NCBI GenBank assembly: GCA_019454985.1
Contig: JACFNF010000012.1
Coordinates: forward strand, 1-64,000
Direction of reading: 5' to 3'
From: Bacteroidales bacterium
GTDB lineage: Bacteria; Bacteroidota; Bacteroidia; Bacteroidales; F082
DNA length: 64,000 nt
Part shown: piece by piece, positions 18,819-32,317 of the stretch
Position numbering within the stretch: the stretch's first letter is position 1
Layout: every line of letters starts with the position of its first letter
Notes under the pieces: model-generated
Databases searched by the model: none
Told to the model about the DNA's origin: nothing
What the model saw: only the letters and a program-made list of their open reading frames with translations
Position numbers and translations under genes: made by a program

Positions 18819-18840
18819 TCACAAATAAACAAACTTCAAA

Positions 18841-18876
18841 AGCCTTCTCCCGGATTCGCGAGAAGGCTTTTTTTTT
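18841..18876. terminator. bidirectional terminator between the lipoprotein and the hydrogenase operon
   Basis: AGCCTTCTC (18841-18849) pairs with GAGAAGGCT (18860-18868), followed by a T8-9 run on the plus strand. On the minus strand the stem is followed by TTTTG, so it may also end the operon terminating at 18954. Confidence 0.8.
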
Positions 18877-18953
18877 ATTCATTAAAAAAGTTCGGGTTTC
18901 GTAAGCTAAAAATATCAGGCTAATCAACTTGGCTTATGCAGCAAATAAAACCG

Positions 18954-20099
18954 TCATTTTGTGACCACTACCACGAGCTTGCCTTGTTCTTCGAGGCGGC
19001 TGACGATACGTTCAGCAATTTTCCATCGGCTGAGCAAGCCCTGTTGTCTGAACTCAATGCTGCCACTATTCAGATTTTTCGATTGTCCAAGCCAAACATT
19101 GATTCGATCGGCCATTTTAAGGTAACCGGCCATATTGGCAGCTACCGAATCAGCCGGATAATCCGATGGGTCTTCATCAAGCAAATGATACACCTGATTG
19201 AGGGTGACCAAACCCTCGGTTACCAACTCAAAACCATCCAGTTGATAAGCAGGAGGAGTTATCGGGTCAATAGTTTCGGCCACCTGGATTCGTTTTTTCA
19301 ATACTCTGGCCGTCATCATGGCAGTAGAGCCCCCAGAAATCAGATGAATTCCTTCAGTTTCAACAAAACTGCTGACCCATTCTTCGTCAGACGATTTTTC
19401 CAATGGTGTACCGGTGAGCAAGTTTACAATCACGCCGCGACGGTTGACTGCCATCAACACCGAACAATCATCGCCAGTGCCCTTTGGCCAATATTCACGT
19501 GCCTGATCATGTACTTTGCGGGCAAGCATTTCGCCGTCTAGGCGTTCGACAGGGAGTTGCGACTGGATAAAACTGCGCACTCCATCAGTTTCCCAGCCCA
19601 ACGGAAATATTTTTCCGATACCAGCCTGGGTAATTCCGTCAGACATCAGTAACAATCCATCGCCACGGCCTATGGTGGTTTCCGCTTCGTGAATAATGGC
19701 CTTTTCGAGGGTATAAACCCTGTTAATCAATGGCTGACAATAGGTTTTATTGACTATCAGCGGCGCAGGCATTTCGTAACTCAACACCGTTGTATTGCCA
19801 TTGTTCAATATTCTGGCAATGGTAAACACCGCGAATGGATCGCCTTTTCCCCATACATCATTCATCGTTTTTGCCACTAAGGCAAAAGCCTCGCGTACGG
19901 AGAGTCCCATCCGAATAAGGCCTTCTAAACGAGAAATACACATATTGGCAGCGATATGCGCCTTGATGCCCGACCCAAGCCCATCGGCCAAAAGGATGGT
20001 AGTTGCAGCTTCATCGCGAAACACGGCGTAGGCATCGCCACATGGAGCTCCAGGCTTTTTCGGTGTTTGAACGGCAAAAAGATCGGTGTGGATATACAT
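18954..20099 (-). CDS. SpoIIE/PP2C-type protein phosphatase linked to the sensory hydrogenase
   Basis: A 381-residue protein. The N-terminal about 220 residues form a PP2C-like phosphatase with the metal-binding motifs CGDAYAV, LLADGLGSG, LLMSDGI and GTGDDCSVLMAV. The remaining about 150 residues are a separate domain of unknown function opening with HLISGGSTAMMTARVL. The start lies 2 bp after the hydS stop, so translation is coupled. Serine phosphatases are the hallmark neighbour of one subgroup of group C (putative sensory) [FeFe] hydrogenases, so I infer that it carries the output of HydS. No partner kinase or anti-sigma pair is visible in the window. Confidence 0.85.
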   Translation of the reverse strand: MYIHTDLFAVQTPKKPGAPCGDAYAVFRDEAATTILLADGLGSGIKAHIAANMCISRLEGLIRMGLSVREAFALVAKTMNDVWGKGDPFAVFTIARILNNGNTTVLSYEMPAPLIVNKTYCQPLINRVYTLEKAIIHEAETTIGRGDGLLLMSDGITQAGIGKIFPLGWETDGVRSFIQSQLPVERLDGEMLARKVHDQAREYWPKGTGDDCSVLMAVNRRGVIVNLLTGTPLEKSSDEEWVSSFVETEGIHLISGGSTAMMTARVLKKRIQVAETIDPITPPAYQLDGFELVTEGLVTLNQVYHLLDEDPSDYPADSVAANMAGYLKMADRINVWLGQSKNLNSGSIEFRQQGLLSRWKIAERIVSRLEEQGKLVVVVTK

Positions 20100-20101
20100 G
20101 G

Positions 20102-21826
20102 CTATTTCTTGATGGAGTCAATCAATGTCTTCATCAACACTTCGCCTTTGGCAGTATGTTCGCCGAGAAACTTAGCCAAGTCCTGAGCCATTTTGATTTG
20201 ATGATCAATGAGTTCCTGAGCTTTTAGTGCGGTCTCAGTTTTGATCTCATCAAGTTGGAATTTGCTCTCCTGGCTAACTGTCACATCAATGAAAATGCCG
20301 GCATACTGATCCTCATCGGGCAATGCATAAGCCACCAAATGACAAATGAGGTTGTATGCCTTATATTGAATGGTCTGCCGAATGACAGATTCGGATGTGG
20401 TTGCCAATTTTTCAAACGGATCAGGATCAATGAGATAACTGATGTTCCGGCCTAAAAGCAAATCAGAGCAGTTAAACATGTTTTTAAAGGCCGGATTCAT
20501 ATGCAGAATTTTCAGTTCTTTACTCAGCAGGATTAGGCCATTGGGGTCGTGCTCGATCATGGTGTCGAATTTTTTTTCTGCCATAGAGCGCATATATGGC
20601 ACACACATCTCGGGTTCGGCCATACCTTCGAGGACGGCAATGGCTTTTTCGCGGCAGCCCGGATAGCCGCAGGCCGTGCAGTTGAGTTCATCTTCGGGGC
20701 TATATTTTCCCGTCATAGCCAATACTTGTCTGATTTGTTCTTCAGTAAAGGAACCTCGCTTTTTATTTTGATCCAAAGGAAATAGCGTTTCAATTCTTTT
20801 GTTTACTGCCAATCCCTCGTCATTTTGACCCGGATTAGTCTGGTTGTACGCAAGAATTCTTTTTCGATCTAAAAGTACATTTCCTGATTTTGAAGCAAAA
20901 GGTCCGCCGATACAGCCGTTTTTGCAGAACATCGGTTCGATGATCATTGCCTGTTTCGGTTGTTCCATGAGGGCTTCCAAAGCCGAATTTACCTCGCGGT
21001 AGCCGCTCACGGCAACAATGGAAGGGTCTAAGAGGTCGGTGTTGATTCCGGCAGTACGTAAAAGTCCGCCTTCGAGTGGAAACAAACGGGCATCGCCGGG
21101 TACGGGCTGATCGAAATTGCTTTCCTCGCATTGTTTGATATTGATTCCGCGTTGTTCGAAAATCTCATCAAACTCCTCGAAGGTGAGCACTACGTCAACC
21201 ATTTTTTCATTTTCGAGCCATTGCGCTTCGTCCTTTTTGGCAACACAAGGCCCCACGAAGACCACTTTGCGTTTGGGCTGTTCGGCCTTGAGCATGCGTG
21301 CGTGTGCAATCATGGGTGAGGCAACACCAATGAGAAAAGGAGCCAGAGCGGGTGTTTTACGTAAGGTGAAACTCACAGCGGCTGGGCAGGCAGTACACAA
21401 ATGCGCCCGGGAAGGGTTTTTTCGGATTGTTTCGGCAGAAGCCTGAGCCACGTGCCAGGCTCCCACAGATGTTTCGGCAACGAAACTGAAACCGAGCATA
21501 CGTGCAGCCGACGGGATACGTTTTTGCTCCCATTCATCATAATATACTACAAACGAAGGGGCAAGGCTCAGCGCAAGCGGAGCTCCTTCATCAAGCATTT
21601 GAAGCACCTTGCTCACATCAGTACGGTAGTTTTTCGCGTTTTGAGGGCAGGCTTTGATACAGGTTCCGCAAGCGATGCACAACTCAGGGATAACCTCGGC
21701 CTGGCCGTTTTTCATTTTGATGGCCTGCACCGGGCAAACCCTCACGCAACGATAACAGTCGCGACATTTGGCTTTGGTGGTATAAACCACAGGCAGTTTC
21801 TCTTTTGGGCGATGGTACTGGCTCAT
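20102..21826 (-). CDS. hydS: PAS-linked sensory-type (group C) [FeFe] hydrogenase
   Basis: 574 residues. Order: two [4Fe-4S] ferredoxin motifs (CRDCYRCVRVCP and CIACGTCIKACP, about 20-65); the H-cluster domain (about 80-340); a four-Cys Fe-S motif (CTACGYPGC then a distant C, about 375-405); a PAS domain (about 410-525); and a coiled-coil tail. H-cluster ligands are present: C147, C194, C301 and C305. The catalytic surroundings differ from HydA: L1 reads C144-T-A146-C-P rather than TSCCP, so the proton-relay Cys is Ala, and L2 reads GPC rather than MPC. This combination plus the phosphatase neighbour fits a low-turnover H2 sensor rather than a bulk catalyst. It lies 125 bp behind hydA, with a hairpin between. 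Confidence 0.9.
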   Translation of the reverse strand: MSQYHRPKEKLPVVYTTKAKCRDCYRCVRVCPVQAIKMKNGQAEVIPELCIACGTCIKACPQNAKNYRTDVSKVLQMLDEGAPLALSLAPSFVVYYDEWEQKRIPSAARMLGFSFVAETSVGAWHVAQASAETIRKNPSRAHLCTACPAAVSFTLRKTPALAPFLIGVASPMIAHARMLKAEQPKRKVVFVGPCVAKKDEAQWLENEKMVDVVLTFEEFDEIFEQRGINIKQCEESNFDQPVPGDARLFPLEGGLLRTAGINTDLLDPSIVAVSGYREVNSALEALMEQPKQAMIIEPMFCKNGCIGGPFASKSGNVLLDRKRILAYNQTNPGQNDEGLAVNKRIETLFPLDQNKKRGSFTEEQIRQVLAMTGKYSPEDELNCTACGYPGCREKAIAVLEGMAEPEMCVPYMRSMAEKKFDTMIEHDPNGLILLSKELKILHMNPAFKNMFNCSDLLLGRNISYLIDPDPFEKLATTSESVIRQTIQYKAYNLICHLVAYALPDEDQYAGIFIDVTVSQESKFQLDEIKTETALKAQELIDHQIKMAQDLAKFLGEHTAKGEVLMKTLIDSIKK

Positions 21827-21871
21827 ACGATAAACATTTAACTCGTTACTAAAAAATCTTTAAGGCAAGAA

Positions 21872-21913
21872 CCTCACTACCTGAGTGGCCAAACGGCCAG
21901 TCGGGCAGTGAGG
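21872..21913 (-). terminator. intercistronic hairpin between hydA and hydS (attenuator or leaky terminator)
   Basis: Three stacked stems of 7, 5 and 5 bp (CCTCACT/AGTGAGG, CCTGA/TCGGG, TGGCC/GGCCA) with single mismatches between them and an AAAC loop. On the minus strand the stem is followed by TTCTTGCC and then a T6 run about 20 nt later, so it is not a textbook terminator. It could reduce hydS transcription or protect the hydA end. Confidence 0.6.
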
Positions 21914-21951
21914 ATTCCCTTTTTTAACCAATTCTAACCAAAATCTCTATC

Positions 21952-24009
21952 TTAGACTTTTACTTTGTTCATTTGTGCTCCTATTCGTTGAATTTCGCTA
22001 TCTAACAAAGCTTTTGCTTTTTCAAAGGTCGCATGTTCAAGGATGGTACCGTTCACACGCATCACAGGACCTCTTTCGCAACGTTCAAAGCAGAAAGTTG
22101 CTTTTACGTCAACCATATCTTCCTGACCTTCAAAGCCAACGATATCGGAGAGTTTGTTTTCGGTGACGTATTTCGAAAGTTTCTTAAGCAAATCCTGTGC
22201 ACCGCGCATATAGCAGTTGGTTCCCACGCACACATACACTTCAATTTGTGGCTCGTTGGTGTTGCGGATATTGATCACCTGGTCAGTGATACGCTTGCGA
22301 CCGCCGTAATGTGTATGAAGCAGCTCGTGTGCTTTGTGGCCGCCAATCTCGCCCAACGTAGTGGCATAAAGCTCTTTTACATAAGGGTTGTCTTGCGATT
22401 TGCGCAACTGCATTTGTTTATCCACATTGTAGATTCCCTGAATACGTTTTTGTCTCACGTCGGGGTCGAAGCTCACAGGTTGTCCGCCACCGGCGATGCA
22501 CCCGCCCGGGCAGGCCATCACTTCAATCAGATCGTATTGTTCCTTGCCAGCAAGCACACGGTCGCAAATCAAACGGGCGTTGGAAAGGGTGTGGGCAATA
22601 CCAAGGCGCAAATCTAATGAGCCAAGCTTCATCTCCAGTGTACGGATACCTTCGAGGCTACGTGTTTGCTTGATCTCAGACTCGATGAGTGTCTCGCCGG
22701 TAATTTTCTCATAAGCAAAACGTAATACGGCTTCGGTAACACCGCCTGTCCCGCCAAAAAGAACACCGGCACCTGTTTTAAAGCCAAGCGGCTGGTCAAA
22801 CGATTCGGGTTTGAGCTTGGCAAAGTTCAATCCGGTTTCGTGAATCATCCTGCCTAATCCTTCGGTGGTCAGCACATGGTCAACGTCGGCCAGTCCATCG
22901 TGGATAAATTCTTCACGTTTGGCTTCAAATTTCTTGGCCGTACAAGGCATGATGGAAACCACAACAAGGTTTTCGGGCTTGATATTGAGCAGCTTAGGGA
23001 GTACTTCGCGGGCAACGCTGCCAAACATCTGTTGGGGCGATTTGCACGAGGAAAGGTTGGGCAGCAGCTCAGGATAATATTGCTCGGCAAACTTCACCCA
23101 GCTTGGGCAGCAGGAAGTGAACTGAGGCAATCGTTCGTTGTTGAGTTTACGTTGGATAAACTCAGTTGCCTCTTCGAATACCGTAAGGTCAGCAGCAAAA
23201 CTGGTATCGTAAACCTGATCGAAGCCCATGCGTTTGAGGGCTGCGACAATCTGTCCGGTACTTACAGCGCCAGGCTCCATGCCAAAGCCTTCTCCCAATG
23301 CCACACGTACGGCTGGAGCTAGCTGAGCAACAACATATTTCTCAGGATTATGGATAGCTTTCCAAACTTCTTCCGTTTCGGGCTTGGGAACAAGCGCTCC
23401 GACCGGGCAAACCGAAACGCACTGGCCGCAATAAACACATTCTACGTCTTTAAGGCTTTTGCTGAAAGCTGGCCCGACAATGGTACGTGCACCGCGGTTG
23501 ACAAAGTCAATTGCGCCAACACTCTGCATTTCTTTACATACCCTGACACAGTCGCCACACAGAACACATTTGTTTGGATCGTGGATGAGCGACCATGAGT
23601 GGTTGTCAATCGGGGCTTCTTTTACAGTCTTTTTAAACCTTACTTTGGTTACCCCTAATCTACGTGCAAGGTCCTGCAATTTACAGTTGTTGGAGCGGGC
23701 GCAACTTGGGCAGCTGATGTCATGATTTGCAAGTAACAACTCTAAGTTCACTTTGCGAATCTGCCTCACCTCATTGGTGTTGGTTCTTACCACCATGCCA
23801 GGAGCGGGTTTGATCGTACAGGTGGTTTGCATGCCCATTCCTTCAATTTCGCAGATACAAAGGCGGCAGGCGCCAAAAGTGCTCAAATGGGAGTGGTAAC
23901 AAAAAGTTGGCAGCTCAATGTCAGCCTTGCGAATCAGTTCCAGCAGGTTTCTTTCCCCTTCAATCGGGACCATGATTCCGTCTATATTGACCATTTCTCG
24001 TGTTTCCAT
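21952..24009 (-). CDS. hydA: electron-bifurcating [FeFe] hydrogenase, catalytic subunit HydA
   Basis: 685 residues. Order: plant-type [2Fe-2S] domain (C37, C48, C51 and a later Cys); His-Cys [4Fe-4S] region (CPSCARSNNCKLQ); two [4Fe-4S] motifs (CVLCGDCVRVC, CVYCGQCVSVCP); the H-cluster domain with complete motifs T-S-C300-C301-P, M-P-C356-T-A-K-K and M498-A-C500-P-G-G-C504; and a C-terminal thioredoxin-like [2Fe-2S] domain (CVGTNCYMRGA ... CFERCERGP, about 590-650). This is the catalytic subunit of trimeric HydABC, which makes H2 from NADH and reduced ferredoxin together, or the reverse. Slightly longer than the Thermotoga protein. It follows hydB after 85 bp. The maturases HydEFG are not in this window. 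Confidence 0.95.
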   Translation of the reverse strand: METREMVNIDGIMVPIEGERNLLELIRKADIELPTFCYHSHLSTFGACRLCICEIEGMGMQTTCTIKPAPGMVVRTNTNEVRQIRKVNLELLLANHDISCPSCARSNNCKLQDLARRLGVTKVRFKKTVKEAPIDNHSWSLIHDPNKCVLCGDCVRVCKEMQSVGAIDFVNRGARTIVGPAFSKSLKDVECVYCGQCVSVCPVGALVPKPETEEVWKAIHNPEKYVVAQLAPAVRVALGEGFGMEPGAVSTGQIVAALKRMGFDQVYDTSFAADLTVFEEATEFIQRKLNNERLPQFTSCCPSWVKFAEQYYPELLPNLSSCKSPQQMFGSVAREVLPKLLNIKPENLVVVSIMPCTAKKFEAKREEFIHDGLADVDHVLTTEGLGRMIHETGLNFAKLKPESFDQPLGFKTGAGVLFGGTGGVTEAVLRFAYEKITGETLIESEIKQTRSLEGIRTLEMKLGSLDLRLGIAHTLSNARLICDRVLAGKEQYDLIEVMACPGGCIAGGGQPVSFDPDVRQKRIQGIYNVDKQMQLRKSQDNPYVKELYATTLGEIGGHKAHELLHTHYGGRKRITDQVINIRNTNEPQIEVYVCVGTNCYMRGAQDLLKKLSKYVTENKLSDIVGFEGQEDMVDVKATFCFERCERGPVMRVNGTILEHATFEKAKALLDSEIQRIGAQMNKVKV

Positions 24010-24094
24010 GGGTAGTATTTCGTTATTTGTTGAAAATCAGCGAAGCCTGAGCTTCATTTCCTGTTCTTATTTGATCGTTTGTTACTGAACTTTC

Positions 24095-26002
24095 TTAGTT
24101 AAATCCGAGAACTGCTTCGAATTTGCACACCTCGAAACATACGCCGCACTTGGTGCAGATTTCGGGATCAATCACATGAGGCTGTTTGCGTTCGCCGCTG
24201 ATGGCCTGTACCGGACATTTGCGGGCGCAAATGGTACAACCTGTACATTTCTCAACGTCAATGGTAATAGTCCGAAGGGCTTTGCAGTTGTTTGTACGGC
24301 AACGCTTGTTGTGGATATGTTCCAGGTATTCATCTTTAAACTTCAACAGGGTTGAAAGAACCGGACTGGGAGCGGTTTTGCCAAGTCCGCACAAGGAGGC
24401 CAGCTTTACCACTTTACCGACTTCTTCAAGCATTTCGAAAGTTTCGTGAGTAGCGTTTCCTTCGATGATATCGTCGAGCAAAGCCAGCAATTGTTTTGTT
24501 CCTTCACGACAGGGCACACATTTTCCGCAACTTTCGCTTTGGGTGAAGTTCATAAAGAAACGTGCAATCTGAACCATACACGACTGTTTGTTCATGACGA
24601 CTAATCCGCCCGAACCTACCATTGCGCCTTTGGCCAGCAGGTTGTCATAGTCTAAAGGCATATCAAGGTCCTCTTCAGTAAGGCATCCACCCGAGGGTCC
24701 ACCAATCTGCACGGCTTTGAAACCTTCGCCTGTCACATTGCCATCGTCATCGGTCACACCACCGCCAATGTTATATACAATTTCGCGCAGGGTTGTACCA
24801 AAAGGTACTTCGATCAGGCCTGTATTGGCCACATGGCCGGTAAGAGCAAAAGTTTTGGTACCTTTTGAAGATTTGGTGCCATACTGGTTAAACCATTCCG
24901 GGCCGTTGCGAAGGATGAGTGGCACAGCAGCCAGAGTTTCCACGTTGTTGATGACAGTTGGTTTTCCGAACAAACCTTTTTGAGCCGGGAACGGTGGTTT
25001 GGGCATTGGCATACCACGTTTACCTTCGATAGAGGCGATAAGCGCTGTTTCTTCGCCACAGACGAAAGCTCCGGCGCCTTCCATTATGTGAATTTCCATA
25101 GACTGACCGGTGCCAAAAACGTTGTCGCCAAGAATTCCGGCTTCATGGGCATCTTCGATGGCTTTTCGCATACGTTGCACCGCCAGCGGATACTCGAGGC
25201 GTACATACACATAAGCTTCATCAGCTCCGATGGCTCTTGCTGCAATCATCATACCTTCGAGTACGCGGTGCGGATTGCCTTCCATCAGGCTACGATCCAT
25301 AAATGCGCCCGGGTCGCCTTCGTCGGCATTACAAATCACATATTTTTTAGCACTTTTCTCAACACGGGTGAGGTTCCATTTACGGCCGGTCGGGAAACCG
25401 CCTCCGCCGCGTCCACGCAAACCAGAATCGAGGATTGTTTGGCAGATCTGCTCATCAGTGAGCTCAGTGAAAGCCCGATAAGCTGCCTGATAGCCATTGT
25501 GTGCAATATATTCGCGGATGTTTTGGGGATCCACATGGCCACACTCACCCAGAACCAAACGATTCTGTCGCTTGTAGAAAGGAATGTCGAGCTGTCCTTT
25601 GTTGCGTTCACCGTTGGCCGGATTCACATAAAGCAACCGCTCAATGATTTCGTCGTTGACAACCGACTTTTCGACAATTTCCTGAGCATCTTCGGGTTTC
25701 ACTTTCACGTACATGGTTTCGTCGGGTAAAATATTGACTAAAGGTCCCTGAGCACAGAATCCCTGACAACCGCTTCCGGTAAGTTGTACCGGGTCGCATT
25801 CATGACGATCCAGTTCGAGTTCGGCAAACAATTCTAATCCTGCATCGGCGATGGCTTTTTCAATGGCCTCATAAACACGAAGGGATCCATTGGCCACACA
25901 ACCGGTTCCGGCACAAACGATGATGCGCTTTTTAATGTGCGAAGCAGCTTTGTTATAAGCTTCTTTTACTTCAGATAGATCGGTAATAATCATGGTTTCC
26001 AT
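24095..26002 (-). CDS. hydB: electron-bifurcating hydrogenase, NuoF-like flavoprotein subunit HydB
   Basis: 635 residues. N-terminal thioredoxin-like [2Fe-2S] domain (CAGTGC ... CQGFCAQGP, about 30-110); NuoF core with the NADH- and FMN-binding words GRGGGGFPTGRKW and CNADEGDPGAFMDR (about 195-245); SLBB domain; [4Fe-4S] site ESCGKCVPCREG (about 500); and a C-terminal two-cluster ferredoxin domain (CTGCTICARKCP, CTKCGVCFEVCK). It carries the flavin where electron bifurcation is thought to occur and docks NAD(H). The N- and C-terminal Fe-S additions are what distinguish HydB from respiratory NuoF. It starts 14 bp after hydC; a second ATG three codons in is possible. Confidence 0.95.
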   Translation of the reverse strand: METMIITDLSEVKEAYNKAASHIKKRIIVCAGTGCVANGSLRVYEAIEKAIADAGLELFAELELDRHECDPVQLTGSGCQGFCAQGPLVNILPDETMYVKVKPEDAQEIVEKSVVNDEIIERLLYVNPANGERNKGQLDIPFYKRQNRLVLGECGHVDPQNIREYIAHNGYQAAYRAFTELTDEQICQTILDSGLRGRGGGGFPTGRKWNLTRVEKSAKKYVICNADEGDPGAFMDRSLMEGNPHRVLEGMMIAARAIGADEAYVYVRLEYPLAVQRMRKAIEDAHEAGILGDNVFGTGQSMEIHIMEGAGAFVCGEETALIASIEGKRGMPMPKPPFPAQKGLFGKPTVINNVETLAAVPLILRNGPEWFNQYGTKSSKGTKTFALTGHVANTGLIEVPFGTTLREIVYNIGGGVTDDDGNVTGEGFKAVQIGGPSGGCLTEEDLDMPLDYDNLLAKGAMVGSGGLVVMNKQSCMVQIARFFMNFTQSESCGKCVPCREGTKQLLALLDDIIEGNATHETFEMLEEVGKVVKLASLCGLGKTAPSPVLSTLLKFKDEYLEHIHNKRCRTNNCKALRTITIDVEKCTGCTICARKCPVQAISGERKQPHVIDPEICTKCGVCFEVCKFEAVLGFN

Positions 26003-26016
26003 TGTTCCTTCATTTT

Positions 26017-26559
26017 TTAGTTAGAGGCTACTGCCTGATTCTCGTACTCAACGATTCCGTCAATAATTTCATCGCAACGCTTATTGTTCACCTGACCGTA
26101 AACTTTTTCGTTAACGACCATTACAGGCGCTAATCCACAGGCGCCCAGGCAACTGACCGGCTCGATGGTGAACATCATATCGTCGGTGGTATGTTTGTCA
26201 GGCGACAGTTTCAATTTTTTATAAAGTAGGTCGAGCAGTTTTGTACTGCCTTTGACGTGACATGCAGTCCCATCGCATACCTTAATAATATATTTACCTT
26301 TTGCTTCGAGCGAGAAATGGGCATAAAAGGTAGCCACACCGTAAACCTCTGCAACCGGCATATCCAATGCGGTGGCAACATAGGTGAGTACCTGGGGCGG
26401 CAGATAACGATAGGCTTCCTGAACCTGTTGCAGGATCGGAATCAGTCGGTCTTTGCTGTGGTTGTTTCGTTCGATGATTTCAATCACCTGATGAAACTGT
26501 CTTAGATTTTTGTTCGGTTCTGTTTTCACGATATTAAGAGTTGGGTTTAAACAGTTCAA
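26017..26559 (-). CDS. hydC: electron-bifurcating hydrogenase, NuoE-like [2Fe-2S] subunit HydC
   Basis: A 180-residue NuoE-type protein: helical N-terminal part (RLIPILQQVQEAYRYLPPQVLTYVA) and a thioredoxin-fold [2Fe-2S] domain with CDGTAC and CLGAC providing the four cysteines (about 95-145). It is the small electron-transfer subunit of HydABC. The reading frame opens with TTG at 26559, overlapping the rex stop as TTGA; an in-frame GTG at 26529 is the alternative. Either way translation is probably coupled to rex. The first 25 residues are not conserved in NuoE, so the start is uncertain. Confidence 0.93.
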   Translation of the reverse strand: MNCLNPTLNIVKTEPNKNLRQFHQVIEIIERNNHSKDRLIPILQQVQEAYRYLPPQVLTYVATALDMPVAEVYGVATFYAHFSLEAKGKYIIKVCDGTACHVKGSTKLLDLLYKKLKLSPDKHTTDDMMFTIEPVSCLGACGLAPVMVVNEKVYGQVNNKRCDEIIDGIVEYENQAVASN

Positions 26560-27230
26560 CGATTATTTGATTGTCCTAACTTGTTGATAATCACTGCGAG
26601 ATTGGAATAAATGTGAGTATCCTGCACGATGATGTTTTCAGGGACTGAGATGGCAACCGGCGCAAAATTCCAGATGGCTTTGATACCCCAAACCACCATG
26701 AGGTCGGCTATTGACTGTGCAACACCGGCCGGGGTGGTGATGATTCCTATATTGATATGCAACCTGGAAGCCAGATCCCGGAATTTTTCGAGGCTGAAAA
26801 CCGGGACACCATGTATCTCAGTACCGATTTTTTTCTTATCGGTATCGAAAGCAGCCACAATTTTGAAGCCTGAATCGCGAAACCCGTTGTATTGGATAAG
26901 CGCACTGCCCAGATAGCCGGCTCCGACTAAAAAAGCTTCGTGTTTGCGGTTGTATCCCAAAAAATTCTCAATGGCATGAAGCAATTCTTCTGTCGAAAAG
27001 CCCACACGTGTACGCCCGGTGATACCCGTATAAGACATATCCTTCACCACCTGAGTTGAGTCCAGACGCAACATTCGGGCAATGGTGGTGGACGAAACAA
27101 AAGGTTCACCCTGTTCATGCAAGGCCTTCACAAAATGAAGATACTGCGGCATTCGCCTGATTGTTGGCTCAGGTACCGCTACACTTTTCGGCCGTTCAAG
27201 CTGTTCTATCTTTTCCATATCTTCTTTCAT
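26556..27230 (-). CDS. rex: redox-sensing transcriptional repressor Rex (operon copy)
   Basis: A 224-residue Rex: winged-helix DNA-binding domain (about 25-85, PFVSSTTIARMLRLDSTQVVKDMSYTGITGRTRVGF) and Rossmann NAD(H)-binding domain with GAGYLG (about 105-200), ending in a domain-swapped helix. Rex senses NADH/NAD+ and usually represses fermentative genes when NADH is low. Placed first in the hydCBA operon, it probably regulates its own transcription and that of the hydrogenase. I start it at ATG 27230, not the TTG at 27263, because TACTTTTG (27239-27246) leaves a leader of only a few nucleotides. A second Rex lies at 31676. Confidence 0.93.
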   Translation of the reverse strand: MKEDMEKIEQLERPKSVAVPEPTIRRMPQYLHFVKALHEQGEPFVSSTTIARMLRLDSTQVVKDMSYTGITGRTRVGFSTEELLHAIENFLGYNRKHEAFLVGAGYLGSALIQYNGFRDSGFKIVAAFDTDKKKIGTEIHGVPVFSLEKFRDLASRLHINIGIITTPAGVAQSIADLMVVWGIKAIWNFAPVAISVPENIIVQDTHIYSNLAVIINKLGQSNNR

Positions 27231-27238
27231 TTTTTTTG

Positions 27239-27246
27239 CAAAAGTA
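27239..27246 (-). promoter_or_regulatory. -7 box of the rex-hyd operon
   Basis: Minus-strand TACTTTTG 9 nt before the rex ATG, implying a nearly leaderless mRNA. A weak palindrome TTATCAATTAA (27258-27268) just upstream is a candidate Rex operator, but it is a poor match to the usual Rex site. Confidence 0.55.
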
Positions 27247-27556
27247 TAAAGATTTTTTATCAATTAACTCTTTTTTTCTTTATTTAAGTAAATTAAAATC
27301 TTTCTAAATTAGCTATAATTGAATTTTTGCAAAATGAATTATATGACTATTTAGCTGATTATCTGTTTTTTAAATTTTTATTTACCTGTTATTTTATTCA
27401 CATTTGTTTATTAAATAACATATCTTTATACAGAATTTATTCGTTATTTTAAATGATTCTATTTAGCAAAGCGGCTGGTTTCAACAATTCCAACAAAGTT
27501 TTTCCAATGGTCACAGGTTGATTTCCGATGGGTGGCCTATCTTTGCAATAGAAAAA
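27247..27556. other. AT-rich divergent intergenic region between rex and the T9SS type-B gene
   Basis: About 300 bp, strongly AT-rich from 27264 to 27460, carrying the rex promoter on the minus strand and TATCTTTG (27538-27545) on the plus strand. No gene, RNA or strong palindrome found. Confidence 0.5.
27538..27545 (+). promoter_or_regulatory. -7 box of the T9SS type-B protein gene
   Basis: TATCTTTG, with TTG at 27518-27520 as a possible -33 element (17-nt spacer). It excludes the in-frame TTG start at 27518. Confidence 0.55.
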
Positions 27557-30166: not shown

Positions 30167-30261
30167 ACATTTCATTAAAAACTGTTTCATCATCAATTGT
30201 TTTGGGAGTACCGCAACGATACTGGCCGAATTGAAAGGTTCCTACTGCGAAAAGATTTTCC

Positions 30262-30269
30262 TATTTTTG
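30262..30269 (+). promoter_or_regulatory. -7 box of hypAB
   Basis: TATTTTTG, exact TAnnTTTG, 23 nt before the hypA ATG. It excludes the longer frame beginning at 30197. Confidence 0.5.
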
Positions 30270-30292
30270 TCATCGAGCTCAATATTAACACC

Positions 30293-30640
30293 ATGCACGA
30301 GTTGTCTATTGCGATTCATATAGCCGATATTATTGAAAATGAGGCTATTCAGGCGCAAGCCGAGAAAGTAACGAAAGTGGAACTCGAAATCGGAAGCATG
30401 TCGGGTGTTGAACCGGCAGCTTTGGAATTGGCTGTGCCAGAAGCTTTTAGAGGCACAATGATGGAGAAGGCAGAATTGGTTTATCACTATATTCCGGCAT
30501 CAGCCGTTTGTCAAAGCTGCTGCCATGAATTTGACCCGACCTGGCATTTTAGCATTTGCCCTCATTGCAACAGTAGCGACACCTATTTTCTGAGAGGTAA
30601 AGAGCTCAATATCAAATCGTTCGACATCATTAAATCTTAA
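30293..30640 (+). CDS. hypA: hydrogenase/urease nickel incorporation protein HypA
   Basis: A 115-residue protein, the normal HypA length, starting MHELSIA, where His2 is the nickel ligand. The zinc site is formed by the CxxC pairs CQSC (residues 74-77) and CPHC (about 90-95). HypA hands nickel to [NiFe]-hydrogenase precursors together with HypB, whose gene starts 10 bp downstream. No hypCDEF and no [NiFe] hydrogenase genes occur here. Start fixed by MHE and by the promoter at 30262. Confidence 0.93.
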   Translation: MHELSIAIHIADIIENEAIQAQAEKVTKVELEIGSMSGVEPAALELAVPEAFRGTMMEKAELVYHYIPASAVCQSCCHEFDPTWHFSICPHCNSSDTYFLRGKELNIKSFDIIKS

Positions 30641-30650
30641 TCTTTTTATT

Positions 30651-31502
30651 ATGTGCGGAACTTGCGGTTGTGGTGAAGACGACCACATCACTTATCGAAA
30701 ACCTTCTGACGAAGGACAAAATACCGGTCATGCTCCATTGATTCACCATCACACACATCCAACTGATAAGCAACATCTTACGCTTTATCATTCGCATGAT
30801 TCGTCTCACGACCATCATCATCACCATCATCATCCACACGAGCAAAAATCCATTGCTATACAACGCAACATCCTATCAAAGAACGATTTGGATGCGAACC
30901 GTAACCGTGGCTATTTCGATGCCTTAAACGTGACAAGTTTCAATTTAGTGAGTTCGCCCGGCTCAGGAAAAACGAGCATTTTGGAACGCACCATTCGCGA
31001 AAAAGGGGATGAACTCAACTGTTTCGTCATCGAAGGTGACCAACAGACTCTGAACGATGCCCGTCGCATTGAAAAGGCCGGAGCACCGGTGATTCAGGTG
31101 AACACAGGCAACGGCTGTCATTTGGATGCGGTGATGGTTGGTAAGGCAGTAAAACAATTAGAGTTACCTCAAAACAGTACTCTTTTCATTGAAAATGTCG
31201 GCAATTTAGTGTGCCCCGCCCTTTTCGACCTTGGCGAAAAAATCCGGGTTGTGATTGTCAGCGTGACCGAAGGTGAAGACAAGCCGGCCAAATATCCAAA
31301 TATGTTTGAAACTTCGCAGCTTTGTCTCATCAACAAGGCCGACCTCCTACCGTATTTGGATTTTGATTTGGATCTTTTTCTGGCTACCGCCCGAAAAGTT
31401 AATCCGCGCCTACAGTTTATCAGAATGAGCGCCAAAACCGGCGAAGGATTCGACGAATGGTATTCCTGGCTCAGCGAACAGCGAAAACCGACTATAGACT
31501 GA
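30651..31502 (+). CDS. hypB: hydrogenase nickel incorporation GTPase HypB
   Basis: A 283-residue GTPase. The N-terminus begins MCGTCGCG, the high-affinity nickel-binding CxxCGC motif, followed by a His-rich nickel-storage stretch (about 30-65, including a run of seven His). The GTPase domain has a P-loop SSPGSGKTS (about 100-108), GDQQT, the metal-binding CH of NGCHLDA (about 146), and the guanine-specificity motif NKADL. It inserts nickel with HypA. The His-rich region is encoded by CAT/CAC runs and could vary in length. Confidence 0.95.
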   Translation: MCGTCGCGEDDHITYRKPSDEGQNTGHAPLIHHHTHPTDKQHLTLYHSHDSSHDHHHHHHHPHEQKSIAIQRNILSKNDLDANRNRGYFDALNVTSFNLVSSPGSGKTSILERTIREKGDELNCFVIEGDQQTLNDARRIEKAGAPVIQVNTGNGCHLDAVMVGKAVKQLELPQNSTLFIENVGNLVCPALFDLGEKIRVVIVSVTEGEDKPAKYPNMFETSQLCLINKADLLPYLDFDLDLFLATARKVNPRLQFIRMSAKTGEGFDEWYSWLSEQRKPTID

Positions 31503-31636
31503 TTTTTTCGTCAAAAGGCTACCGAGAAACTTGCTTTATTGAAATTTCACAAGTCGGGAAAGAGGTTTTTTCATGAACTTTCTTAACAATGTGAAAATAA
31601 TAACAAAAAAACTTGCATTTGTTGTATTTGAGAGAG

Positions 31637-31644
31637 TAATTTTG
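31637..31644 (+). promoter_or_regulatory. promoter of the second rex gene
   Basis: TAATTTTG with TTG at 31613-31615 (21-nt spacer), a good Bacteroidota -33/-7 pair, 32 nt before ATG 31676. A lone TTAACAA (31583-31589) resembles half a Rex site but lacks the other half. Confidence 0.55.
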
Positions 31645-31675
31645 TCTTTTGAGAATTTTCCCCAAACCAAAACAA

Positions 31676-32317
31676 ATGCTTGAGTTAAAAAATTTACCCC
31701 ACAAAACCATTGAGCGCCTCAGCCAATACCGCCGGGCATTACTGATTTGTCTCGAAAAAGGTCAGACACATATTTATTCGCACGAAATTGCACGCATTCA
31801 ACACATTACGGCTGTTCAGGTGCGGCGCGATCTGATGCTTATCGGCTATACCGGCACCCTTCGTAAAGGTTACAATGTAAAAGAATTGATTGACCTTATC
31901 GGCGAAATCATTGATTCACAGGAAGGCATCAATGTAGCCATTATTGGCATGGGGAACCTCGGAAGAGCGCTGATCAACTATTTTTCAGGCAAACGTTCGC
32001 ATTTGAAAATCGTTGCCAGTTTCGACATCAATCCAGATAAGATTGGCAATACTATGTCGGGTGTTCCGTGTTTTTCGACCGAGGACATGGAAAAAGTGAT
32101 TCGCGAAAAGAATATCAGGGTTGGGATCATGACCGTTCCGGCCGATTTTGCCACTCAAACAGCTGAAGCGTTGGTACAAGCCGGAATCAGAGGTATTCTC
32201 AATTACACACCCAAACCGGTGAACGTCCCAAAAGAGGTGTATCTGGAAGAATATGACATGATTACTTCTCTTGAAAAAGTGGCGTTCTACGTGAAAATCA
32301 ATGAAGATAAGAAATAA
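31676..32317 (+). CDS. rex: redox-sensing transcriptional repressor Rex (second copy)
   Basis: A 213-residue Rex homolog. Winged-helix domain (about 10-70, YSHEIARIQHITAVQVRRDLMLIGYTGTLRKGYNV) and Rossmann domain with GMGNLG (about 90-96), then SFDINPDKIG and NYTPKPVNVP motifs of the NAD(H)-binding core. It differs clearly from the Rex at 26556-27230 (GAGYLG), so it is an old paralog rather than a recent copy. It is downstream of hypB but has its own promoter. ATG 31676 is preferred over TTG 31649, which would leave almost no leader. It ends in a strong terminator shared with arcC. Confidence 0.92.
   Translation: MLELKNLPHKTIERLSQYRRALLICLEKGQTHIYSHEIARIQHITAVQVRRDLMLIGYTGTLRKGYNVKELIDLIGEIIDSQEGINVAIIGMGNLGRALINYFSGKRSHLKIVASFDINPDKIGNTMSGVPCFSTEDMEKVIREKNIRVGIMTVPADFATQTAEALVQAGIRGILNYTPKPVNVPKEVYLEEYDMITSLEKVAFYVKINEDKK

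Follow-up and report, generated by a model that had tools for sequence, protein, structure and literature searches.

A conserved Rex-HydABC cassette carrying a putative H2 sensor and an adjacent SpoIIE/PP2C phosphatase in a Bacteroidales bacterium and other phyla

Introduction

Sensory-type [FeFe] hydrogenases encoded beside a Ser/Thr phosphatase form group C3 of HydDB, the phosphatase-linked group, with a role listed as undetermined (PMC5037454). In Thermoanaerobacterium saccharolyticum, the phosphatase HfsA and the PAS-containing hydrogenase HfsB share the hfsABCD operon with another hydrogenase (PMC5707799), and a Rex site is predicted upstream (PMC5886521). Deletion of hfsA or hfsB increased ethanol yield and NADH-dependent alcohol dehydrogenase (NADH-ADH) activity, and removal of hfsA, hfsB or both cut H2 more than deletion of all four genes, from which the authors deduced a regulatory function (PMC5707799). 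A group C hydrogenase and a putative phosphatase are likewise linked to an H2-controlled ethanol gene cluster in Ruminococcus albus (PMC6776011). Clusters in which a C3 gene accompanies A3 genes (bfuT beside bfuABC) are reported from Hydrogenedentota, Calditrichota and Bacteroidota (PMC11406978), a rex-hydCBA arrangement from Caldithrix abyssi (PMC5317091), and repression of a bifurcating hydrogenase by Rex from Caldicellulosiruptor bescii (PMC8579813). Here, we analyse an operon of the order rex-hydC-hydB-hydA-hydS-phosphatase in a stretch of 64,000 nucleotides, hereafter the window, from the draft genome of a Bacteroidales bacterium (GCA_019454985.1, contig JACFNF010000012.1, our contig C60; 3.03 Mb, 96.7% complete). 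We consider it somewhat better than an even bet that in this conserved cassette Rex sets the amount of HydABC by NADH, and that HydS reads the resulting H2 and switches the neighbouring phosphatase.

The locus resembles each of these systems in part. It shares with HydDB group C3 the sensory-type hydrogenase next to a Ser/Thr phosphatase and differs in a fixed place behind rex-hydCBA, a uniform replacement of a cysteine by alanine or serine and a conserved tail helix. In contrast to hfsABCD, it has another gene order and partner hydrogenase, and no rex appears in the hfs operon name; this comparison is one of gene content. The Caldithrix operon, unlike the window, is preceded at 38 bp by a near-canonical Rex box, and its account does not discuss hydS and the phosphatase in the sections at hand (PMC5317091). 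The words rex and phosphatase are absent from the main text on the A3 and C3 clusters; three Bacteroidota in that study carry an additional bfuT ahead of bfuC, which was not seen in the window (PMC11406978). With RsbP, RsbU and SpoIIE, the cassette phosphatase shares the PP2C fold and the pattern of metal-binding aspartates; sensor and phosphatase are however separate proteins in the cassette, no STAS or RsbW partner was found in the genome, and the phosphatase has an additional, possibly NuoG-like C-terminal domain. A further likeness to RsbP is the combination of PAS domain and helix, which we take to be the likely switch. The original prediction had stated that parts of the system were known, and HydDB group C3, hfsAB, the Caldithrix rex-hydCBA operon and the Hydrogenedentota A3 and C3 clusters bear this out. 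For the whole cassette, its operator and the C-terminal domain we found no account in the open-access literature searched, in which no search was aimed at domain or operator as such. The parts are already published; what appears to be new is group C3 sensing inside a fixed Rex-HydABC cassette.

Results

The six genes lie on the minus strand between 18954 and 27263, each as an uninterrupted open reading frame (ORF; Table 1). ORFs together with Pfam and NCBIfam domains confirmed the strand and order given in the original prediction. Its intergenic gaps were right for the last four of the distances, which are -4, 14, 85, 125 and 2 bp in order; the first had been put at -3 bp, whereas rex and hydC share 4 bp. 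The Rex protein possesses both the DNA-binding N-terminus and the Rossmann domain. HydA comprises Fe_hyd_lg_C and Fe_hyd_SSU domains; it narrowly misses the NCBIfam A6 model NF040763 (760.1 bits, cut-off 765) and passes the wider group A model TIGR02512 (492.8 bits, cut-off 405.95). With NuoE-like, NuoF-like and catalytic subunits together, the HydABC set is complete, and HydABC is predicted to be an NADH-linked, H2-producing hydrogenase, putatively bifurcating or confurcating.

The arrangement is kept far beyond the source genome. A collection of genomes from 84,980 species was scanned with a 48-row phosphatase alignment, which returned 215 relatives; the best 80 of these were kept, and gene order at their loci (numbered with L; contigs and genomes likewise with C and G) was counted after tblastn with the genes of the window. 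Where upstream sequence extends for 6.9 kb or more, 32 of 45 phosphatase loci show the full six-gene order; where it extends for 1.7 kb or more, 63 of 70 have HydS as the next gene upstream, no more than 400 bp from the phosphatase. Recurrence of one order in 32 of 45 loci argues that the arrangement is more than chance, in line with the earlier proposal of a single unit headed by rex. The complete modules, assigned by record title, belong to Bacteroidetes/Bacteroidales (10), Ignavibacteria/Melioribacteraceae (7), Planctomycetota and its classes (5), Omnitrophica (3) and Riflebacteria (2), with one each in Hydrogenedentota, Armatimonadetes, Mcinerneyibacterium, Myxococcota and an unplaced bacterium. 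This makes eight phylum-level labels if Ignavibacteria are placed inside Bacteroidota, and nine if they are not. Among the 13 exceptions, only rex is absent in L037, L046 and L072, and the others are partial or split (L020, L030, L042, L043, L051, L057, L058, L077, L084 and L085).

Pairwise distances of Rex, HydA, HydS and phosphatase co-vary (r 0.81-0.87; shuffled maximum 0.32) in the 30 of 32 modules that fell within length limits, a comparison made without a species-tree control, so that shared ancestry of the organisms could account for the correlation. The closest phosphatase in a protein search, 96% identical, also comes from a Bacteroidales bacterium. The gene is present in eight of nine genomes of the genus, the source genome included; 11 of 61 relatives have a strong match (E <= 1e-170) and nine a weaker one, and 17 of 395 genomes sampled from the phylum match at E <= 1e-60. 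Clustering of neighbouring genes yielded one group of 12 loci, which we rejected as a target: it strings together dissimilar ORFs whose distances vary widely. No other cluster holds more than four loci.

HydS is a sensory-type hydrogenase linked to a PAS domain, as originally proposed. It contains two 4Fe-4S domains, Fe_hyd_lg_C, an FeS domain (PF04060) and PAS_8 (25.4 bits, cut-off 21.8); H-cluster cysteines, C-terminal 4Fe-4S cluster and PAS domain are group C3 features, as is the Ser/Thr phosphatase gene adjacent to hydS, 2 bp downstream. Of 85 HydS proteins, 72 were 500-720 amino acids long and 62 of these came from named loci; the ten from unnamed loci, six of which repeated named ones, were left out. 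The cysteine ligands of the H-cluster and the four cysteines of the C-terminal cluster are kept in all 62. In contrast, the proton-shuttle position (C299 of CpI), a cysteine in HydA, is alanine in 59, serine in three and cysteine in none. A survey of sensory hydrogenases found cysteine in 17%, alanine in approx. 43% and serine in approx. 10% at this position (PMC10055695), so the cassette HydS vary less here than sensory hydrogenases in general. TmHydS carries alanine here, and restoring the cysteine reduced its activity (PMC10055695); the residue alone thus does not account for slowness. HydS likely binds H2 and turns it over slowly, the ligands being read from the sequence and the activity inferred from them.

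Behind the PAS domain follows a tail (residues 528-572 in the window) with Q543 and A559 invariant in all 62 proteins. A strict tail pattern fits 88 of the best 120 among 3979 HydS homologues above threshold, and the other 32 show, by eye, the same tail with single changes, counts that come without a control set of phosphatase-less HydS. The tail is a good candidate for a docking element because a second, kinase-fused HydS of the same genome lacks both PAS domain and tail. Outside Bacteroidota, 28 of 45 HydS end, after a variable linker, in the peptide W-D-[TI]-[YF]-T-S-K (for instance in L030, L035, L038, L047 and L060), which by this pattern is found in none of 17 within the phylum and is possibly a docking or phosphorylation motif.

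The assignment of the last gene to the SpoIIE/PP2C phosphatases also held: SpoIIE matches at 42.4 bits (cut-off 25), and the catalytic residues are intact, with all metal-binding aspartates kept. The phosphatase alignment has 94 rows (87 distinct, one of them the copy of the window). A fold search of the predicted model placed the PP2C domain nearest SpoIIE and the RsbU domain of Rv1364c. The domain begins near residue 1, and the protein has no sensor region. The unnamed C-terminal domain (residues 224-381) was modelled alone, the PP2C domain having filled the fold-search results of the whole model, and its predicted model possibly resembles NuoG and FwdB. A match to eIF2-alpha was dismissed: it is a single stretch of 40 residues (i-Evalue 0.06-0.19 per copy), taken as convergence, and a score of 6e-7 came from a chain holding this stretch twice. 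Two variants stand apart. Phosphatases of approx. 420 amino acids with an insert occur in Planctomycetaceae (L052, L063, L064, L066, L067, L068, L075, L081 and L082) at loci without a HydS match, several on short contigs. The Riflebacteria-type loci L040, L043 and L051 contain two consecutive hydS-phosphatase pairs, one divergent (25-31% identity), with a hydrogenase-like piece between them.

A textbook Rex box reached nominal P <= 0.05 in five of 36 promoters (L021, L030, L035, L038 and L047; approx. 2 expected) and was clear only in L035 and L047. Two other motifs emerged before rex; both were discovered in the promoters also used for counting, and their resample figures are not independent tests. 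In Bacteroidota, the inverted repeat AATAAAGA-N6-TCTTTATT was present with at most two mismatches in 10 of 10 relatives (0.07 expected in resamples of 11 promoters), or in 8 of 10 with a slightly different promoter cut; other spacings gave two matches at N2, one at N5 and otherwise none. No copy of this Bacteroidales box with fewer than five mismatches was seen before hydS of L018, at the solitary phosphatase gene of L014 or at the second hydABC cluster, L007. A search of the own genome was uninformative (58 matches, 45 in the reversed control), and no regulon could be named from it.

For the other phyla, a comparison of all palindromic 6- and 8-mers in the promoter set put TATCGATA first; this palindrome lies within 200 bp before rex in nine of 34 promoters (0.2 expected), or in 11 of 36 with minus-strand loci added. 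Its copies are exactly 14 bp apart in L049, L059, L070, L078 and L083; most of those in L059 lie downstream of where the aligned rex begins. Five of 12 genomes chosen for such sites contain the exact tandem, always at the module promoter; sites with two mismatches occur elsewhere too, up to four in the reversed control. Before rex or split hydS operons, the palindrome was seen in L030, L049, L050, L057, L058, L059, L070, L078, L083, L085, L162 and L163. In the genomes G396 and G404, which have a split module, it precedes both rex-hydC-hydB (through hydA in G404) and, on another contig, hydS-PP2C; in L030 it precedes rex-hydC-hydB and hydG-hydF-hydS-PP2C. G396 and G404 are related, which leaves two independent cases for hydS. 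A shared palindrome at both separated parts ties sensor and phosphatase to the hydrogenase independently of adjacency. As the only DNA-binding protein of the module, Rex1 is inferred to bind the candidate operators. Its recognition region differs by operator group, with QVVKD in Bacteroidota rows (QVTKD in L025) and RKD in the other aligned rows; two rows did not align.

The remaining features are collected in Table 1. The likely start of rex is ATG 27230 because TACTTTTG, which we take to be a Bacteroidetes-type -7 promoter box, lies at 27246-27239. A scan for sigma-70 promoters and terminators gave no more matches than shuffled sequences. The strong hairpin between hydA and hydS is a possible attenuator or mRNA processing element and may reduce hydS and phosphatase relative to hydA. 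Stems of differing sequence are seen at this place in several Bacteroidota relatives (by eye, with no shuffle control), and none of note in L013, L017 and L024.

Table 1. Predicted features of the rex-hydCBA-hydS-phosphatase operon and its flanks
Feature	Position	Strand	Basis or remark
rex1, predicted Rex-family NADH-responsive repressor	26556..27230	-	ORF extendable to TTG 27263; NF003994 284 bits, cut-off 130
hydC, NuoE-like subunit	26017..26559	-	ORF and Pfam
hydB, NuoF-like flavin mononucleotide (FMN)/NADH subunit	24095..26002	-	ORF and Pfam
hydA, group A type catalytic [FeFe] subunit with extra C-terminal 2Fe-2S thioredoxin-like domain	21952..24009	-	Pfam/NCBIfam
hydS, [FeFe] hydrogenase of sensory type carrying a PAS domain and, at residues 528-572, a conserved tail helix	20102..21826	-	Pfam, alignment
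SpoIIE/PP2C phosphatase (residues 1-223) with unnamed, possibly NuoG/FwdB-like C-terminal domain (residues 224-381)	18954..20099	-	Pfam, model
Possible -7 promoter box TACTTTTG (Bacteroidetes type)	27239..27246	-	Sequence
Degenerate Bacteroidales box AATAAAGA-N6-TCTTTATT, uncertain	27427..27448		3 mismatches, P 0.05
Strong hairpin between hydA and hydS	21850..21925	-	-35.1 kcal/mol, z -5.75
Terminator-like hairpin 3' of the phosphatase gene	18830..18880	-	Preceded by an A run and followed by four T; -22.5 kcal/mol, z -5.57

The source genome contains a second hydABC-type operon (L007:1173-12803, contig C100) of the order hydC2-hydB2-hydA2-hydS/kinase-response regulator-kinase-hydG-hydF-hydE, in which subunit names and hydEFG were assigned from reading of the ORFs. 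Its HydS is fused to HisKA and HATPase domains and has aspartate at the proton-shuttle position; the kinase after the response regulator is a receiver-kinase hybrid. Two types of H2 sensor, phosphatase-linked and fused to a histidine kinase, thus stand side by side in one genome. Near the operon, hypA, hypB and a second rex (rex2) occupy 30197-32317 on the plus strand; in L015, hypB and rex2 (89% identical) follow directly behind the phosphatase. A single NiFe hydrogenase large subunit is encoded, in a 486-residue frame on contig C12.

Discussion

In the mechanism that we favour, high NADH would probably release Rex1 from its operator, as family and position suggest, and rex-hydCBA-hydS-PP2C would be expressed. 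HydABC is predicted from its subunits to form H2 from NADH and reduced ferredoxin. HydS, with its H-cluster ligands kept and the proton-shuttle cysteine lost, would then likely bind H2 with slow turnover. Docking of HydS on the PP2C domain, in trans and by way of PAS domain and tail helix, is probable and would make the pair a split version of an RsbP-type PAS-phosphatase, a step for which we see roughly balanced chances. The phosphatase may finally dephosphorylate a Ser/Thr target other than a STAS protein, in the first place HydABC or another cassette protein reached via the possibly NuoG-like domain, in the second a fermentation enzyme such as AdhE; this assignment of targets is tentative and less likely right than wrong.

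Several observations weigh against this account. The H2 response, the phosphatase activity and the binding of HydS to the phosphatase are all predictions at the sequence level, and the originally proposed circuit, with H2 controlling a dephosphorylation, is supported in part. The window has no clear operator: its best Bacteroidales box has three mismatches and its best textbook Rex box, 11 of 14 positions, is not significant (P 0.31). At the split Bacteroidales locus L020 no box was found before hydS (best five mismatches), and in L085 the palindrome stands before rex and hydC with none near hydS. Binding of the new motifs by Rex1 in particular is at odds with the textbook boxes of L035 and L047 (13 of 14 positions) and with the near-canonical box of Caldithrix (PMC5317091). 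Seven of 70 phosphatase loci have no HydS within 400 bp, including L014 and those of termite-gut Planctomycetaceae; it is missing at L014, L052, L064, L066, L075 and L082, and L053 has a wider gap. The C-terminal cluster of TamHydS, a group D enzyme, was reported not to be reduced by H2 (PMC13104023), a finding that speaks against passing a redox signal straight on to the PAS side. Deletion of hfsA also reduced the transcripts of hfsB, hfsC and hfsD, and the hfsA phenotype is therefore not clean (PMC5707799). Neighbour clustering revealed no target gene recurring beside the cassette. Finally, the draft genome contains no Hanks kinase (Pkinase) in a search that did not extend to HprK, HipA, UbiB and the like, which leaves the phosphatase without a known opponent.

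The fold of the PP2C domain, nearest SpoIIE and the RsbU domain of Rv1364c, would suit classical partner switching, in which the phosphatase dephosphorylates a STAS anti-anti-sigma factor so that an RsbW-type kinase lets go of its sigma factor, the mode of action of RsbU, RsbP and SpoIIE. The original prediction had noted that no kinase, anti-sigma factor or STAS protein lies nearby and had proposed a genome search for STAS and anti-sigma proteins. For STAS, anti-sigma factor and Hanks kinase, its statement extends to the whole draft genome, with each search positive in 6 to 12 of 14 control genomes; no candidate partner came up. The sole STAS domain is part of a 578-residue SulP-like frame, and neither STAS_2 nor DRTGG was found in the assembly, which at 96.7% completeness may have missed a gene. 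A short RsbW-type anti-sigma kinase was not found there either: all eight HATPase_c_2 matches lie in frames of 247-748 residues, those of 247 and 374 residues being histidine kinases, and only two exceed the Pfam cut-off (frames of 720 and 737 residues, not scanned further). Since STAS partner, RsbW, DRTGG and Hanks kinase were all missing in these searches, classical partner switching is unlikely in this genome and, in our estimate, distinctly improbable.

The hfs phenotypes suggest a different target, namely that the phosphatase mainly controls fermentation outside the operon, through AdhE or its regulator, and that its link to HydABC is co-expression only. Deletions of hfsA and hfsB raise ethanol yield and NADH-ADH activity, with adhE suggested by the authors as a direct or indirect target (PMC5707799), and in R. 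albus an adjacent alcohol/aldehyde dehydrogenase falls together with the sensory hydrogenase cluster (PMC6776011). However, the neighbour clustering, which covered the loci, brought up no adhE or other dehydrogenase gene as a repeated companion of the cassette, and we regard this explanation as unlikely. Gene adjacency alone is no proof of signalling, and group C enzymes retain some activity, as the low but active TmHydS illustrates (PMC10055695). HydS might thus serve as a low-rate or auxiliary hydrogenase instead of sensing H2, and the phosphatase might simply travel with it, unconnected by signalling. This is quite unlikely given that PAS domain, tail helix and loss of the proton-shuttle cysteine are kept across phyla and that the phosphatase accompanies HydS in 63 of 70 loci.

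The favoured mechanism of Rex-controlled HydABC and H2-reading HydS also has a more specific version, in which the cassette is a self-contained controller. The C-terminal domain, built like the NuoG/FwdB scaffold in this version, would dock on the NuoEFG-like HydABC, the tail helix of HydS would gate the PP2C domain, H2 would set phosphorylation and activity of the hydrogenase, and a Rex clade with a changed operator would set its amount, with no sigma factor or STAS protein involved. We put this forward as an unlikely conjecture.

For H2 sensing by fermenters and the targets of phosphatase-linked sensory hydrogenases, the cassette narrows the question to named parts. Bacteria that carry it probably possess a built-in hydrogen feedback control. 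If H2 gates the hydrogenase via the phosphatase, H2 output would be under direct feedback in the anaerobic communities of, for example, digesters, sediments and guts.

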